Below, piece by piece: positions 55,004 to 60,999 of a stretch of 64,000 nucleotides of DNA (the first letter of the stretch is position 1; the number at the start of each line of letters is the position of its first letter). The stretch covers positions 247,938-311,937 of the forward strand of contig NZ_VYGV01000015.1 in assembly GCF_013387465.1 (NCBI RefSeq), in the 5' to 3' direction. The DNA comes from Hydrogenophaga aromaticivorans (GTDB lineage: Bacteria; Pseudomonadota; Gammaproteobacteria; Burkholderiales; Burkholderiaceae_C). Under the pieces are notes generated by a model that worked only from the letters and a program-made list of their open reading frames with translations, made no database searches and had not been told where the DNA came from. Both the position numbers and the translations under genes were made by a program.

Positions 55004-55046
55004 AATGAAAAAAAGCCGCTGTGAAAACAGCGGCTTTTTTTCATTC
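55003..55046. terminator. Bidirectional terminator with 20-bp perfect arms and GAAA loop
   Basis: Arms 55003-55022 and 55027-55046 are perfectly complementary around a GAAA tetraloop, with A7 and T7 runs. It ends gap on one strand and the SPOR gene on the other; the SPOR stop codon (55041-55043) lies inside the arm. Confidence 0.93.
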
Positions 55047-55799
55047 GCAGGGCTGGAGTCTTTTGCCCGCGAGAGCAGCGCCGAGGCCACTCACAGCGTT
55101 GCGCTGCGCTTCGGTGGCGGCGGGCAGGCGCAGGACAAAGTTGGTGCCTTCGGGCCGCTCCACCGCCACGCGCGCGGTGCGCACGCCCTTTTTGCTCAGG
55201 TCCTGCAGGGCCTGTTCGGCCGAGGCTTCGCTGGAGAAGGTGCCCAGCGCCAGACCGCGTCCGAGTGCTGGCACCGTGACTTCCCGGAATTCGATCTTGA
55301 TGTCGCGCAGTTCGGTCTTTTTGCGCGCCATCTGCTCGTCGTTGTAGCGTCCCATGTAGACAATCCAGCGGCCTCCGCTGAGAACTTCGTTGAGCCGCCA
55401 GGCGCCGTCGGGCAGGCCCAGTTGTTGCAGGGCACTGCGCAACACATCGGCCTGGGCTGGCGAGTAGATGGCGGCTTGCCAACAAGCGGTGGCGGGCGTG
55501 TTGTCGGTCTGGGGCTTGGCAGGGACTTCGGGGGCCGCAACCGTGGTCGCTGCCATTGCCTCTGGCGCTGGAGCGGGTGGTGTTGGGGGCGCCGCCGTCG
55601 GTGCCGTGGCGTTCGATGGCGCCTCGGCCGGCCGGGGGGCGTTGAGCAGGCGCAAGCCCTCGGGCTTGATCTGGGATCGCAACCGCTCGGGCTCGGACTG
55701 CACCACCGGTTTCAGGCCCAGGGCGCCCAGGTACCCTTGGGTCCAGGCGAAATAGCCCGCGTTGGCCAGCACCAGCAACCAGATCACCACCCTCAACAT
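55041..55799 (-). CDS. SPOR-domain membrane-anchored protein
   Basis: A 252-aa protein with an N-terminal membrane anchor (VVIWLLVLANAGYFAWTQG), a Pro/Ala-rich periplasmic linker (residues about 55-95) and a C-terminal SPOR-like domain (VPALGRGLALGTFSSEASAE, then QALQDLSKKGVRTARV). SPOR domains bind denuded septal peptidoglycan, so a cell-division or envelope role is likely. It overlaps the birA stop by 7 bp, and its own stop codon falls within the terminator stem. Confidence 0.82.
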   Translation of the reverse strand: MLRVVIWLLVLANAGYFAWTQGYLGALGLKPVVQSEPERLRSQIKPEGLRLLNAPRPAEAPSNATAPTAAPPTPPAPAPEAMAATTVAAPEVPAKPQTDNTPATACWQAAIYSPAQADVLRSALQQLGLPDGAWRLNEVLSGGRWIVYMGRYNDEQMARKKTELRDIKIEFREVTVPALGRGLALGTFSSEASAEQALQDLSKKGVRTARVAVERPEGTNFVLRLPAATEAQRNAVSGLGAALAGKRLQPCE

Positions 55800-56605
55800 G
55801 GCCGCACACTCACTTCCGAACTGGTGACCGCCTGCATGCCCTGGTCGGTCTGAACCAGCAAGGCCCCTTGCGGGCTCACACCACAGGCGGTTCCCTGGGT
55901 GCCGTCGGACAGGCGCACACTTTGCCCCTGGAGCGCATCGCGCCGGGCGAAACGCTCGGCAAAGGCGGTGAAGCCTTGCGACTCAAAGGCCTGGATGTCG
56001 CGCACCAGCGCGGGCGCCACCCGTGCCAGCGCCTCGCCCGCGGTCAGGCCCACCAGCACCTCGGACAAGCCGGCGGGCGCCATGGCGGGCAGCAGCGCGT
56101 CCGGGCTGGCCAGGGCGCTCACGGCCGCGGCTTCGGGGCGGGCGATGTTGATGCCCACGCCCACCACGACCAAGCGCGGGTGTGTGGCAGCGCTGCCGAC
56201 CGATGTGCCGTTGCTGGCGGTTTCCACCAGGATGCCACCGAGCTTGCGCTGGTGCAGCCAGAGGTCGTTGGGCCACTTGAGCCGCACATCCGGGTGCAGG
56301 CTCTCGGCCAGGCTCACGCCGACCGCCAGAGACAGGCCGGACCAGTCGGCCGGCGCCAGCGGCAGCGCGAGCGAAAAGGTGAGCGACTGGCCGGCCTTGC
56401 TGTGCCAGCCCTTGCCCAGACGACCGCGCCCGGCGGTCTGCTCGTCGGCCGCCAGCAGCACCGGCTCCATCAACCCGGCGCGCGCGCGGCGCATGAGCTC
56501 GCTGCTGGTGGAGTCGATGCTGGGCAGCACCTCGACCGTGAAACCCGGCAGATCGGGCACGACCGCCTGCCAGACGGCCTCGACGTGGGCGAGCAGGTCA
56601 GACAT
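55793..56605 (-). CDS. birA: Biotin-[acetyl-CoA-carboxylase] ligase BirA
   Basis: A 270-aa class I biotin protein ligase without the N-terminal repressor helix-turn-helix of E. coli BirA. The biotin/ATP site is seen in QTAGRGRLGKGWHSKAGQSL, VRLKWPNDLWLHQRKLGGIL and VVGVGINI. It attaches biotin to the carboxyl-carrier protein of acetyl-CoA carboxylase. ATG 56605 was preferred to the frame opening at 56644. Downstream of the SET gene and its 3' repeat, and overlapping the SPOR gene. Confidence 0.93.
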   Translation of the reverse strand: MSDLLAHVEAVWQAVVPDLPGFTVEVLPSIDSTSSELMRRARAGLMEPVLLAADEQTAGRGRLGKGWHSKAGQSLTFSLALPLAPADWSGLSLAVGVSLAESLHPDVRLKWPNDLWLHQRKLGGILVETASNGTSVGSAATHPRLVVVGVGINIARPEAAAVSALASPDALLPAMAPAGLSEVLVGLTAGEALARVAPALVRDIQAFESQGFTAFAERFARRDALQGQSVRLSDGTQGTACGVSPQGALLVQTDQGMQAVTSSEVSVRPC

Positions 56606-56631
56606 GGTCGGAGAGGCGCGCCTGCAGCCCA

Positions 56632-56707
56632 GAACACCGCGCAACCGGCTTTGCCGGGGCGCTGGTGTTGTCCCCTTGGGGGGAAGACGCGAAGCGGCGC
56701 AGGGGGG
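56632..56707 (-). repeat. 3'-UTR hairpin repeat, copy 6 (abuts the SET gene stop)
   Basis: Begins immediately after the stop codon at 56708-56710: CCCCCCTGCGCCGCTTCGCG, TTCCCCCCAAGGGGA, then ACACCAGCGCCCCGGCAAAGCCGG...GCGGTGT. Confidence 0.86.
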
Positions 56708-57253
56708 TCATCCCAGTTTCGTGGCACGGCCACCGCGCTTCGGCGCCAGCAGCGTGCCGCGGCAGTTCTTGGCGCCGCACCAGCAGGGGTACTCGGCCTT
56801 GAGCTTCGGGGTGTAGGGCTCGTCGATCACCAGGCCGTAGTCGTAGAACAGCTCTTCGCCCGCGGCGATGTTGCGCTGGGCGCGGATGAAGACCCGGCCG
56901 TCGTCCACCTCGGCTTCGCAGTTGGGGTTGCAGCTGTGGTTGATCCAGCGCGAGGAGTTGCCGCCCACCTTGGCGTCGATGACGTGGCCTTCATCGATGT
57001 GGAAATAGAAGGTGTGGTTCGGATCGCTGGGGTCGTGGGGGTGGCGCCTGAGCGCCTCGTCCCAGCTGATGATCTCGCCCACGTATTCAATCAGGGTCTC
57101 ACCTTCGGCCAGATCCACGACGGCGTAGACGCCCTTGCCGTGCACGCCGGAGCGCCGCGTCTGGATGCGCCGGCTGCTGGCAGCGGGCGTTTTGGTGGCG
57201 GAAGCGGCGCGCGTCTGGCGGGGGCTTTTTGCGAAACCTGCGGTTTTCGTCAC
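56708..57253 (-). CDS. SET-domain protein-lysine methyltransferase
   Basis: A 181-aa protein: a Lys/Arg/Ala-rich basic N-terminus (residues 1-30), a SET domain with SGVHGKGVYAVVDLAEGE, the SAM/catalytic NHSCNPNC at 105-112 and Tyr in FYDYG (137-139), and a post-SET zinc motif CWCGAKNC (Cys157, 159, 164). All core catalytic elements are intact. The start is GTG 57253. Eukaryotic homologues methylate histone lysines; bacterial targets are mostly unknown. It is divergent from a topoisomerase with a histone-H1-like tail, an attractive substrate (inference). Confidence 0.88.
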   Translation of the reverse strand: MTKTAGFAKSPRQTRAASATKTPAASSRRIQTRRSGVHGKGVYAVVDLAEGETLIEYVGEIISWDEALRRHPHDPSDPNHTFYFHIDEGHVIDAKVGGNSSRWINHSCNPNCEAEVDDGRVFIRAQRNIAAGEELFYDYGLVIDEPYTPKLKAEYPCWCGAKNCRGTLLAPKRGGRATKLG

Positions 57254-57286
57254 GGCCGGAATTTTTGGTAAGGTTGATTCATGCAG

Positions 57287-57335
57287 GTGCGCGCGTGTGT
57301 GTGCGTACCCATGTGTGCGCGTGCATGCGCGCGTG
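57287..57335. other. Alternating purine-pyrimidine (Z-DNA-prone) tract in a divergent promoter
   Basis: 57287-57308 is 22 nt of unbroken purine-pyrimidine alternation (GT, GC and GTAC steps). After CC, 57311-57335 is another 25 nt of perfect alternation. It occupies half of the 98-bp gap between the SET gene and topB. Confidence 0.85.
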
Positions 57336-57351
57336 AAAGCTGATTGTAGAG

Positions 57352-60324
57352 ATGAAAACTGCTGAAGGTTTCGCCAAAACCCTGGTCATTGCCGAGAAGC
57401 CATCCGTGGCCCAGGACATCGTGCGAGCGCTCACCCCGGTGGCGGGCAAGTTCGACAAGCACGATGACCACTTCGAGAGTGACACCTACGTCGTCACTTC
57501 CGCCGTGGGCCACCTGGTGGAGATCGCCGCGCCCGAAGAGTTCGACGTCAAACGTGGCAAGTGGAGCTTCGCCCACCTGCCGGTGCTGCCGCCCTACTTT
57601 GAACTCAAGCCGATCGACAAGACCAAGTCGCGCCTGTCGGCGGTGGTGCGCCTGGCCAAGCGCAAGGACGTGACGAAACTCATCAACGCCTGTGACGCGG
57701 GCCGCGAGGGCGAGCTGATCTTCCGGCTGATCGAACAGTACGCCGGTGGCCTGAAGGGCGGCTCGTACCAGACGCTGGGCAAGCCGGTGCAGCGCCTGTG
57801 GCTGCAATCCATGACGCCGGCGGCCATCCGCGACGGTTTTGAACACCTGCGCAGCGATGCACAGATGCAGGGACTGGCCGACGCCGCGCGCAGCCGTTCC
57901 GAGGCCGACTGGATGGTCGGCATCAACGGCACGCGCGCCATGACCGCGTTCAACTCGCGCGACGGCGGCTTTTTCCTCACCACGGTCGGCCGGGTGCAGA
58001 CGCCCACGCTGTCCATCGTGGTCGAGCGCGAAGAAAAGATCCGCGCCCACCGCAGCCGCGACTACTGGGAAATCCACGCGGCCTTCCTGGCCGAGGCCGG
58101 CGAGTACCCGGGCAAGTGGTTCGACCCCGCGTTCAAGAAGCCCACCGGCGATGACGCCGACCTGGAGCAGCGCGCCGACCGCGTCTGGAGCCAGCGCGAA
58201 GCCCAGGCGATCGCCGATGCGGTGCGCGGCAAGGCCGCCAGCGTCAAGGAAGAGAGCAAACCCACCACGCAGGCCAGCGGCCTGCTGTACGACCTGACCA
58301 GCCTGCAGCGCGAGGCCAACGGCCGCTTCGGCTTCTCGGCCAAGACCACGCTGCAGCTGGCGCAAAGCCTGTACGAGCGCCACAAGGCCCTGACCTACCC
58401 GCGGACCGACTCGCGCGCCCTGCCCGAGGACTATTTGCCCACGGTGAAGCAGACCTTCGAGATGCTGGCCGGCAGCGGCATGAAGCACCTGGCGCCGCAC
58501 GCGCGCACCGCGCTCGACGGCGGCTACATCCGCCCGAGCAAGCGCATCTTCGACAACAGCAAGGTGTCGGACCACTTCGCCATCATCCCCACGCTGCAGG
58601 CGCCGCACGGGCTGAGCGAAGCCGAGCAGAAGCTGTACGACCTGGTGGTTCGCCGCTTCCTGGCGGTGTTCTTCCCCAGCGCCGAATTCATGGTCACGAC
58701 CCGCATCACGAGTGTGGTCAATCACCACTTCAAGACCGAAGGCAAGGTGCTGGTCAAGCCGGGCTGGATGGCGGTCTATGGCAAGGAAGCCGCCGAAGAC
58801 GTGGTGGATGCCAAAGAGGGCGACAAGGGGCAGAACCTGGTGCCGGTGCGCGAAGGCGAGACCGTGCGCACCGAATCGGTGGAGACCAAAGGCCTGAAGA
58901 CCAAGCCACCCGCACGCTATTCGGAAGCCACCCTGCTGGGCGCCATGGAAGGCGCCGGCAAGCTGGTGGATGACGACGAGCTGCGCGAAGCGATGCAGGA
59001 AAAAGGCCTGGGCACGCCTGCCACGCGCGCGGCCATCATCGAAGGCCTGCTGACCGAGAAGTACATGTTCCGCGAAGGCCGCGAGATCATCCCCACGGCC
59101 AAGGCCTTCCAGCTCATGACACTGCTGCGAGGCCTGGGCGTGGAAGAACTCTCCAAGCCCGAGCTCACCGGCGAGTGGGAATACAAGCTGGCGCAGATGG
59201 AGCACGGCAAGCTCAGCCGCGCCGCCTTCATGGGCGAGATCGCCGCCATGACCGAGCGCATGGTGAAGAAGGCCAAGGAATACGACCGCGACACCATCCC
59301 CGGCAACTACGCCACCCTGCAAACGCCCTGCCCCAACTGCGGCGGCGTGGTGAAAGAAAACTACCGCCGCTACGGCTGCACCGGCACCGACGGCAACAGC
59401 GAGGGCTGCGGCTTCTCGTTCGGCAAGTCGCCGGCCGGTCGCACCTTCGAGCCCGAAGAGGCCGAACAGCTGCTGGCGACCAAAAAGATCGGCCCGCTGG
59501 AAGGCTTCCGCTCCAAGGCGGGCTGGCCCTTCGTGGCCGAGATCGTCATCAAGTTCAACGAAGAAGAGAAGAACTGGAAACTCGAATTCGACTTCGGTGA
59601 CGACAAGAAAAACGAAGAGACCGGTGAGCTGGTCGATTTCACCGGCAGCGAATCGCTCGGCGCCTGCCCCAAGTGTGGCGGAGCGGTGCACGAACACGGC
59701 GCCAACTACGTCTGCGAGAAGTCGGTGCCGACGATGGCGCAGGCCACACCGACTTGCGACTTCAAGAGCGGCAAGATCATCCTGCAGCAGCCGGTGGCGC
59801 GCGAGCAGATGAGCAAGTTGCTGGAAACCGGCAAGACCGACCTGCTCGACAAGTTCGTCTCCATGCGCACGCGCCGTGCGTTCAAGGCCTTCCTGGCCTG
59901 GGACAAGGAAGCGGGCAAGGTGAACTTCGAGTTCGCACCGTCCAAGTTCCCGCCGCGCAAGACCGCGGCCGGCGCACCCGTGCGCGCGGCGGCTGGCAAA
60001 GCCGCCCCGGCCAAGAAGGCCGCGCCTGCGAAGAAAGCCGCAGCCAATAAGGCGCCCGCGGTCAAAACGCCCAAGGCGCCGCGCAAGACCACTGCCGCGA
60101 GCGGCAAGCAGCCCAGCGCGGCGCTGGCCGCGGTGATCGGTGCCGATGCCGTGTCGCGCCCCGAAGCGGTGAAGAAGCTGTGGGACTACATCAAGGCCAA
60201 CGGTCTGCAGGACGCGGCCAACAAGCGCAACATCAACGCCGACGCCAAGCTGGAACCGGTGTTCGGCAAGCCGCAGGTGACCATGTTTGAAATCGCCGGC
60301 GTGCTGGGCAAACACCTCAGCTGA
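57352..60324 (+). CDS. topB: DNA topoisomerase III with histone-H1-like tail and SWIB domain
   Basis: A 990-aa type IA topoisomerase that relaxes or decatenates DNA. Toprim domain (LVIAEKPSVAQDIVRAL; DAGREGELIFRLIEQY), catalytic Tyr349 in LTYPRTDSRALP, then zinc-ribbon-like repeats (CPNCGGVVKE, CPKCGGAVHEH). Residues about 875-925 form a basic tail with AKKAA/APAKK repeats like histone H1 or bacterial HC proteins, and about 925-990 a SWIB/MDM2 domain (SRPEAVKKLWDYIKANGLQD, KPQVTMFEIAGVLGKHL). E. coli TopB (about 650 aa) lacks both additions. ATG 57352 follows GTAGAG closely. Confidence 0.93.
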   Translation: MKTAEGFAKTLVIAEKPSVAQDIVRALTPVAGKFDKHDDHFESDTYVVTSAVGHLVEIAAPEEFDVKRGKWSFAHLPVLPPYFELKPIDKTKSRLSAVVRLAKRKDVTKLINACDAGREGELIFRLIEQYAGGLKGGSYQTLGKPVQRLWLQSMTPAAIRDGFEHLRSDAQMQGLADAARSRSEADWMVGINGTRAMTAFNSRDGGFFLTTVGRVQTPTLSIVVEREEKIRAHRSRDYWEIHAAFLAEAGEYPGKWFDPAFKKPTGDDADLEQRADRVWSQREAQAIADAVRGKAASVKEESKPTTQASGLLYDLTSLQREANGRFGFSAKTTLQLAQSLYERHKALTYPRTDSRALPEDYLPTVKQTFEMLAGSGMKHLAPHARTALDGGYIRPSKRIFDNSKVSDHFAIIPTLQAPHGLSEAEQKLYDLVVRRFLAVFFPSAEFMVTTRITSVVNHHFKTEGKVLVKPGWMAVYGKEAAEDVVDAKEGDKGQNLVPVREGETVRTESVETKGLKTKPPARYSEATLLGAMEGAGKLVDDDELREAMQEKGLGTPATRAAIIEGLLTEKYMFREGREIIPTAKAFQLMTLLRGLGVEELSKPELTGEWEYKLAQMEHGKLSRAAFMGEIAAMTERMVKKAKEYDRDTIPGNYATLQTPCPNCGGVVKENYRRYGCTGTDGNSEGCGFSFGKSPAGRTFEPEEAEQLLATKKIGPLEGFRSKAGWPFVAEIVIKFNEEEKNWKLEFDFGDDKKNEETGELVDFTGSESLGACPKCGGAVHEHGANYVCEKSVPTMAQATPTCDFKSGKIILQQPVAREQMSKLLETGKTDLLDKFVSMRTRRAFKAFLAWDKEAGKVNFEFAPSKFPPRKTAAGAPVRAAAGKAAPAKKAAPAKKAAANKAPAVKTPKAPRKTTAASGKQPSAALAAVIGADAVSRPEAVKKLWDYIKANGLQDAANKRNINADAKLEPVFGKPQVTMFEIAGVLGKHLS

Positions 60325-60342
60325 TTCAGGAGACAACACACC

Positions 60343-60999
60343 ATGAGTCTCAAACTTTATTTCGCCCCCGGCGCCTGCTCGTTCGTGCCGCACAGCATGC
60401 TGGAACTCTCGGGTGCGCCATTCGAACCCGCCAGCGTCAAGCTGCACAAGGGCGAGCAGCGCTCGGCTGAGTATCTGGCGCTCAACCCGCGCGGCCAGGT
60501 GCCGGTGCTGGTGGACGACGGCGAGGTGGTCACCCAGATCGTGTCCATCCTGTTGCACCTGGATGCGAAGTTTCCACAGGCCGGCATCCTGCCCGCGTCG
60601 GGGCTGGCGCGCACGCGTGCGCTGTCCACGCTGGCCTGGATGAACAACACGGTGCACCCCACCTTCACCCATGTGTTCATGCCGCAGAAGTTCACCGAGG
60701 ACGAAGGCGCGCAGAAGGTCATTCGTGCGTTCGCCGCGAACAGCTACCGGGGTCTGCTGGGCGAGATCGAGGTGCTCGCGGCCCAGGCTTCACCCTGGCT
60801 CACGGGCGAGAAGCCGGGCGCGCTCGACGCCTACGCGCTGACCCTGCTGCGTTGGGGCGGTTACGCGGGCATCGATCCCACCACCTTCCCCTCCACCTGG
60901 GCGCTGGCCCAGCGGTTCGCGGCACTGCCGGCCGTGGCGCGCGCGGTGGAGCGCGAGAAGCTGCAGCTCAACGTGTACCAGCCGGCCATGGCGGCCTGA
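60343..60999 (+). CDS. Glutathione S-transferase family protein
   Basis: A 218-aa cytosolic GST. The thioredoxin-like N-domain has LYFAPGACSFVPHSMLELSG, where Cys12/Ser13 fit the beta-class active site, and NPRGQVPVLVDDGEVVTQ, with cis-Pro and glutathione contacts; the C-domain is helical. It follows topB by 18 nt on the same strand, with AGGAG upstream, but a functional link is not evident. The substrate is unknown. Confidence 0.9.
   Translation: MSLKLYFAPGACSFVPHSMLELSGAPFEPASVKLHKGEQRSAEYLALNPRGQVPVLVDDGEVVTQIVSILLHLDAKFPQAGILPASGLARTRALSTLAWMNNTVHPTFTHVFMPQKFTEDEGAQKVIRAFAANSYRGLLGEIEVLAAQASPWLTGEKPGALDAYALTLLRWGGYAGIDPTTFPSTWALAQRFAALPAVARAVEREKLQLNVYQPAMAA

Follow-up and report, generated by a model that had tools for sequence, protein, structure and literature searches.

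A predicted SET-domain lysine methyltransferase gene faces topB across a shared alternating purine-pyrimidine tract in a block conserved through a family of Burkholderiales

We analyzed a 64,000-nucleotide stretch of DNA from Hydrogenophaga aromaticivorans (Burkholderiales; Burkholderiaceae_C; contig NZ_VYGV01000015.1, positions 247,938 to 311,937 of the forward strand), hereafter the window, in which the gene for a predicted SET/post-SET protein lysine methyltransferase (SET) and topB, the gene for DNA topoisomerase III, diverge from a 98-bp gap (Table 1). The unit conserved across the window's family is the block birA-SET/topB, in which a gene for a birA-like biotin protein ligase lies downstream of SET, and the linkage of SET points to birA as much as to topB. 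The most unexpected feature of the locus is the SET-topB gap, which carries a long tract of alternating purines and pyrimidines. We tentatively propose, at a little less than even confidence, that SET acts inside the cell on nucleoid proteins of the SWIB type, at their histone H1-like tails, and that TopB may belong to that group.

The SET gene encodes an intact SET domain plus a post-SET cysteine cluster. Pfam PF00856 covers residues 39-140 (E 9.7e-25; 87.5 bits against a curated cut-off of 22.4), and across 150 aligned SET proteins (149 family loci and the window) the residues N105, H106, C108 and Y139, together with the post-SET cysteines C157, C159 and C164, are invariant. The Pfam match and these catalytic and zinc-binding residues bear out the annotation of an intact SET/post-SET lysine methyltransferase made in an earlier, sequence-only reading of this DNA, and by its residue conservation the protein has the look of a working enzyme that selection maintains. 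At position 137 the aligned proteins have Tyr in 134 cases and Phe in 16, which may represent a mixed product-specificity switch. The closest solved structures by sequence are MLL/COMPASS enzymes, which are also nearest by fold, since a Foldseek search with the AlphaFold model (mean pLDDT 76; SET domain good, N-terminus poor) returned MLL1 as its best match (E 6e-12); the substrate proposals below were made without the structure model. The window genome has one SET and two SWIB stretches and is close to Hydrogenophaga, the named loci of which are 77-90% identical to the window in SET. Many family genomes hold two to four SET matches, and G390 has four.

A survey of 200 genomes from 141 genera of the family found SET in 187, SWIB in 198 and a match to the NCBIfam topoisomerase family NF011313 in 199, of which 192 score over the cut-off. 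For the gene neighborhood we took the best SET of 149 genomes among the matches listed, one region each, with the window's own excluded and the 37 other SET-bearing genomes left out. TopB is encoded head to head with SET in 143 of these 149 regions, and four of the remaining six are accounted for by contig ends, so that the pairing holds in 143 of 145 testable loci; the SET gene facing a topoisomerase gene, as the sequence-only reading had described and placed it, is thus correct in its coordinates and general in the family. The two real exceptions, L207 (genome G376) and L225 (G432), lie away from contig ends: in L207 no divergent topB was found, yet birA still adjoins SET, and the SET protein of L225 is only 54% identical to that of the window and may be a paralogue. 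Among the named loci the pairing is present in 75 of 80; four of the remaining five have a SET start less than 230 bp from the contig edge, and the roughly 500 bp upstream of SET in L096 show no topB. The gene birA lies beside SET in all 143 divergent family loci, and because it flanks SET as faithfully as topB does, adjacency does not single out TopB as the partner of the enzyme. A gene for a SPOR-domain protein stands beside the block in 73 of the 143 short loci and 74 of the 80 named loci, and the gene beyond topB varies, with a GST gene there in just 9 of 129 loci that leave room for one.

The alternating tract is conserved with the block. Over 138 family loci the longest alternating run per gap has a median of 19.5 bp, and 91 of the 138 gaps hold a run of at least 16 bp, as against 7% of dinucleotide shuffles. 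Of the 128 runs of that length in 808 kb of family sequence, 125 fall in the gaps (extended by 15 bp on each side), which amount to 20 kb or 2.5% of the sequence. Among the named loci such runs occur in 70 of 74 gaps, with 93 runs in 15 kb of gap and 13 others in 753 kb; the background for this density is all non-gap sequence, most of it coding, and an excess of about 35-fold would persist even if all 13 outside runs fell in the non-coding tenth. Eight further runs, in six named loci lacking a usable topB match, were left unplaced. An intergenic control by greedy calling of open reading frames was rejected, since in GC-rich DNA this procedure picks long antisense frames and misses the SET-topB gap itself. 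The steps of the tract are 51% CG/GC and 43% of the CA/TG type over the family, so that these are long CG/CA alternating runs beyond chance, the sequence form of a Z-DNA element. The sequences and lengths of the runs vary freely between loci, which argues that the alternation itself is what is kept. A coding role as an N-terminal extension of SET was rejected, as in the near relatives L066, L068 and L069 the gaps between aligned starts measure 96, 97 and 98 bp, differences that would break a reading frame. Next to the tract comes a conserved GGATTGTAG block, and ATTGTA lies near topB in 106 of 143 loci, against a background of 0.15 per kb.

We give about an even chance to the tract being a Z-DNA-prone, supercoil-responsive promoter element, as its sequence suggests. 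It may instead be a hairpin, an array of transcription-factor sites or a protein-binding site, which we consider possible yet on balance doubtful. Folded as DNA, the window tract has a z of -1.6 and imperfect inverted arms, and shuffles that preserve the alternation fold slightly worse than the native tracts (median z -0.65 and -0.9; 134 loci), so that a weak extra self-complementarity leaves room for a hairpin or protein site. The extra folding is small, however, while the alternation is extreme; the runs vary in sequence and length; and a hairpin has no need of alternation. The tract is also kept in some family genomes that have lost SET, namely L166, L168, L169, L170 and L171 (three genus codes); L167 has it in interrupted form, and L164/L165 and L172 lack it. 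It is thus retained in three of six readable SET-less lineages, and can go with the promoter of topB (or birA) without SET. Outside the family we read 29 loci and found no run of at least 16 bp beside SET or topB. Among the best-matching papers none was found that links Z-DNA to the promoters of topoisomerase genes, to divergent promoters or to Burkholderiales, SWIB to Burkholderia and topoisomerase, or SET to topB or topoisomerase III.

TopB itself is an ordinary member of the NF011313/PRK14724 topoisomerase III family and shows no difference from it, matching at full length and including the SWIB end (1959.9 bits against a cut-off of 1088; family positions 2-988 of 988). Its domains run in the order Toprim, Topoisom_bac, two Toprim_Crpt stretches, a K/A/P-rich linker and SWIB, the last scoring 89.6 bits against a cut-off of 25. 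The sequence-only reading had called the lysine-rich stretch the tail of TopB and the most histone-like sequence of the window. The stretch exists, and with 10 Lys in 50 residues it has the highest lysine density among all open frames of the window, but it is the linker between the Toprim_Crpt stretches and an overlooked SWIB domain, and genome-wide it is surpassed by a standalone SWIB protein. SWIB fusion was found in 80 of the 149 TopB tails read. The pattern K-x-P-R-K/A (K.PR[KA]) occurs in 54 of these 80 fused linkers, against a mean of 1.4 and a maximum of 5 in composition shuffles, with its P-R some 11-19 residues ahead of the SWIB core. PRK is found in one of 70 plain, non-fused tails, and PR[KA] in one of 44 SWIB heads read, that one being the fused TopB of L386. 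Two fused TopBs come from SET-less genomes, and the pattern is kept in one and gone in the other. Judged from its sequence, it may be a roughly fixed lysine site, serving either as a methylation site or as a DNA-binding motif of SPKK type; the KAPRK of the window presumably resembles residues 14-18 of histone H3 and SPKK motifs. A 1140-residue open frame opposite topB (window 57250-60672, minus strand) is an effect of GC-rich codon use that misleads gene calling based on open frames.

The standalone SWIB protein, with its (APAKK)n head, is the most histone-like of the proteins examined in the window genome and far more H1-like than the TopB linker, and would be a better candidate substrate for SET than the TopB tail. 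The histone-like protein HC2 was considered as an alternative substrate and discarded, PF07382 having no match in the window genome; Hc1 and other lysine-rich proteins were not searched.

Table 1. Features of the SET/topB locus in the window, with the standalone SWIB protein of the same genome (given in coordinates of locus L002)
Feature	Position	Strand	Basis or remark
SPOR-domain protein, next gene of the block	55041..55799	-	Pfam SPOR, E 8.6e-7
birA-like biotin protein ligase, downstream of SET	55793..56644	-	Pfam BPL_LplA_LipB, BPL_C
SET/post-SET protein lysine methyltransferase, predicted	56708..57253	-	181 aa, GTG start; Pfam PF00856
Z-DNA-prone tract of alternating purines and pyrimidines, in the gap upstream of both SET and topB	57287..57335	.	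two runs, 22 bp and 26 bp
ATTGTA block (TACAAT on the minus strand), right of the tract; possible promoter element	57343..57348	.	
topB, DNA topoisomerase III with C-terminal K-rich linker and SWIB	57352..60324	+	990 aa; NCBIfam NF011313, Pfam
K/A/P-rich linker, TopB residues 871-920	59962..60111	+	peak Lys density in the window's open frames
K-A-P-R-K motif, TopB residues 908-912, before SWIB; candidate methylation or SPKK-like DNA-binding site	60073..60087	+	
SWIB/MDM2 domain, TopB residues 921-989	60112..60318	+	Pfam PF02201, E 1.1e-25
Standalone SWIB protein, (APAKK)n H1-like head	L002 1495-1980	-	22 Lys in 69 residues

A lysine-rich TopB tail does not require SET. Among 13 SET-less family genomes a topB stretch was found in 11 (that of G355 is a fragment), and 8 of the 11 tails hold 6-12 Lys; two have none, both from one genus (L170 and L171, genus code g157) in which Arg takes the place of Lys, and one is an aberrant sequence (G387, L172), which was dropped from the comparison of lysine share. 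Outside the family, at least 3 Lys are present in the tail in 18 of 18 SET-less and 21 of 22 SET-bearing genomes fetched. Co-occurrence of SET and TopB-tail genes, which the sequence-only reading had offered as a means of refuting its proposal, is therefore uninformative, since nearly everything co-occurs within the family and tail lysines persist in every SET-less genome fetched beyond it. The composition of the tails does shift with SET. Within the family the K/(K+R) of the TopB tail is 0.87 with SET and 0.70 without (p 8e-5; by lineage, p 0.003), and the tails of standalone SWIB proteins have a median of 9 KK doublets in 29 SET-bearing genomes as against 1 in 12 SET-less ones (p 3e-4); among SWIB tails of at least 30 residues, the six from SET-less genomes all have fewer than three. 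The SWIB-tail sample comprised the window and 30 SET-bearing genomes, chosen to have a single SWIB match apiece and to come from different genera; L367 and L386 were dropped from the KK test, L367 being kept in the tree-pair and contingent-loss analyses described below, and L187 had no readable tail. In this last genome (G336), which is SET-less, the frame of the standalone SWIB protein contains an internal TAG and has no readable head.

Outside the family SET is less common, occurring in 81 of 300 genomes of the order, 9 of these within the family. SWIB is present in 63 of the 81 SET-bearing genomes versus 49 of the 219 SET-less ones (p 2.7e-18), and by genus in 36 of 48 versus 17 of 86 (p 4e-10), relatedness being ignored in both counts; this co-occurrence fits an earlier remark that SWIB often accompanies SET (PMC6426960). 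For topB outside the family we searched 40 of the 72 SET-bearing and 38 SET-less genomes, and 54 of these had a topB scoring above the cut-off, from which we fetched the tails of 22 SET-bearing and 18 SET-less ones. Conservation of the divergent pair across Burkholderiales, the check that the sequence-only reading had proposed, holds within the window's family. Of the 22 SET loci fetched outside it, only L010 shows a match to the TopB N-terminal half inside the 1.5 kb of flanking sequence, and by match positions its pair lies tail to tail. In other families 28 SET-bearing genomes have a topB over the cut-off, and in 8 of them the two genes are no more than 20 kb apart, about 0.25 being expected by chance. 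These eight (G005, G031, G058, G098, G138, G141, G207 and G217, with G031 included on condition that its one contig is a circle) span six family codes, and the neighborhood of SET and topB is probably older than the head-to-head pair. At L322 (G005), likewise from another family, SET and topB converge, their matched stretches being 115 bp apart.

A prokaryotic SET enzyme with a DNA-associated protein, MC1-alpha, among its substrates is also known from Methanosarcina mazei, as Go1-SET (PMC3980110). It differs from the SET described here in being archaeal and in acting on another substrate, and it is not known to be linked to a topoisomerase. The chlamydial trio of NUE/CT737 (SET), CT460 (SWIB) and CT643 (topoisomerase I-SWIB), which is accompanied by Hc1 and Hc2, has its counterpart in the SET, standalone SWIB and topoisomerase-SWIB of the window genome, with the differences that the topoisomerase here is of type III and divergently linked to SET, that HC2 has no match in the genome (Hc1 was not searched), and that the H1-like tail is fused to SWIB itself. 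A study of Waddlia proposes a chromatin-modifying complex from the co-occurrence of SET, SWIB and topoisomerase-SWIB (PMC6426960). The sequence-only reading had invoked methylation of chlamydial HC proteins by a SET protein as its precedent, and this is contested in print, NUE being reported to methylate itself and mammalian histones and not Hc1, in a paper that also discusses an opposite earlier positive report with truncated Hc1 (PMC2904774). In plants, the plastid protein SWIB-4 is a small SWIB protein with a histone H1-type motif, as is the standalone SWIB of the window genome; it is reported to compact nucleoids and to substitute for H-NS in E. coli, and differs in that its DNA binding is regulated by phosphorylation, the available part of the report mentioning no SET partner (PMC4154389).

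In the reading that we favor, SET would be an active, vertically inherited protein lysine methyltransferase within a family-wide birA-SET/topB block, both arms of which share one short upstream gap. Its targets would most likely be lysines in the H1-like, K/A/P-rich tails of SWIB-type nucleoid proteins, modified inside the cell, with the standalone SWIB protein and its (APAKK)n tail as prime candidate and the TopB linker with its K-x-P-R-K site as the second; methylation would tune DNA affinity rather than act as a switch of developmental state. Topoisomerase III acts on local negative supercoiling, and the Z-DNA-prone gap would probably make transcription of topB (plus SET and birA) respond to it. 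This reading is supported by the invariant catalytic residues in 150 of 150 proteins, the likeness to MLL/COMPASS, the divergent pair, the co-occurrence of SET with SWIB, the presence of one SET and a standalone (APAKK)n SWIB protein in the window genome, the raw tail associations, the K-x-P-R-K/A pattern, the tract and the precedent of SWIB-4. That one supercoil-sensing Z-DNA switch jointly controls a SWIB-tailed topoisomerase III and a SET enzyme modifying SWIB nucleoid tails, that of TopB included, is a further step that we regard as unlikely.

Several results weigh against intracellular action of SET on SWIB-type tails. The linkage of SET to birA equals that to topB. On the TopB tree only three independent supported pairs bear on the association of tails with SET, of which 0.5 are concordant on average and the rest show no difference, so that the raw shift of lysine share in TopB tails has no independent support. 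SET-bearing near relatives of SET-less genomes are also KK-poor in their SWIB tails, with one KK each in G349, G400 and G320 and two in G366. A model of contingent SET loss, in which the rate of loss is tied to a KK-poor SWIB tail, improved on independence (p 0.003), but so did one with small genome size (p 0.001), and the model was set aside. Strongly KK-rich SWIB tails occur in SET-less genomes outside the family (for example L038, L045, L048 and L062), and 18 of the 81 SET-bearing genomes of the order have no SWIB. On the side of the gap, two of the six readable SET-less lineages lack the tract, which also shows the weak extra self-complementarity described above, and a sigma-70 scan of the SET-topB gap found no promoter of that kind.

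An alternative is that the substrate of SET is another protein altogether, such as one of the ribosome or of translation, and that SET stays by topB and birA since the order of the block is stable in the family, an explanation that we hold to be possible, if likelier wrong than right. It accounts for the equally tight linkage of birA, for the disappearance of the tail associations under control for relatedness, and for seven SET-less family loci (L164, L165 and L167-L171) where SET is missing from between birA and topB, which face one another, and the TopB tail and the tract are often retained. It sits less well with a gene order that is unstable just beyond topB, with the proximity of SET and topB in other families, and with the co-occurrence of SET and SWIB across the order.

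The proposal of the sequence-only reading, that the TopB tail is the specific substrate of the enzyme encoded opposite in a chromatin-type switch, has in its favor the divergent pairing itself, the K-x-P-R-K/A pattern peculiar to SWIB-fused TopB, and the richer lysine share of TopB tails where SET is present. We nevertheless think it improbable, since SET is equally linked to topB genes without a SWIB fusion (of 139 SET-bearing TopB tails 78 are fused and 61 are not, the latter 8-91 residues long with a median of 14), the tails are mostly retained without SET, the independent pairs are only three, birA is linked as closely, and the genome holds a better candidate in the standalone SWIB protein. 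Lastly, a secreted effector acting on eukaryotic histones, as reported for LegAS4/RomA and for BtSET of B. thailandensis (PMC3980110), has in its favor that report and the fact that the sole NCBIfam match of SET is to AnkI/LegAS4. It is very improbable here, since this match reaches 40.5 bits, far under the cut-off of 550, the gene is fixed in one chromosomal block in a family where 187 of 200 genomes carry it, and its named relatives include Hydrogenophaga, Polaromonas and Rhodoferax.

If SET does act within the cell on SWIB-type nucleoid tails, free-living Burkholderiales would possess a working SET/SWIB/topoisomerase chromatin system whose genes can be deleted, which would make testable the question, disputed in Chlamydia, of whether bacterial SET enzymes modify their own DNA-packing proteins. 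An alternating tract kept across a family upstream of a topoisomerase gene, while its letters may vary, would argue strongly, as a natural example, for Z-DNA as a supercoil sensor in bacteria. Were the joint switch also to prove true, it would constitute a bacterial feedback circuit between DNA topology and chromatin-type protein methylation, extending across a mostly free-living family.

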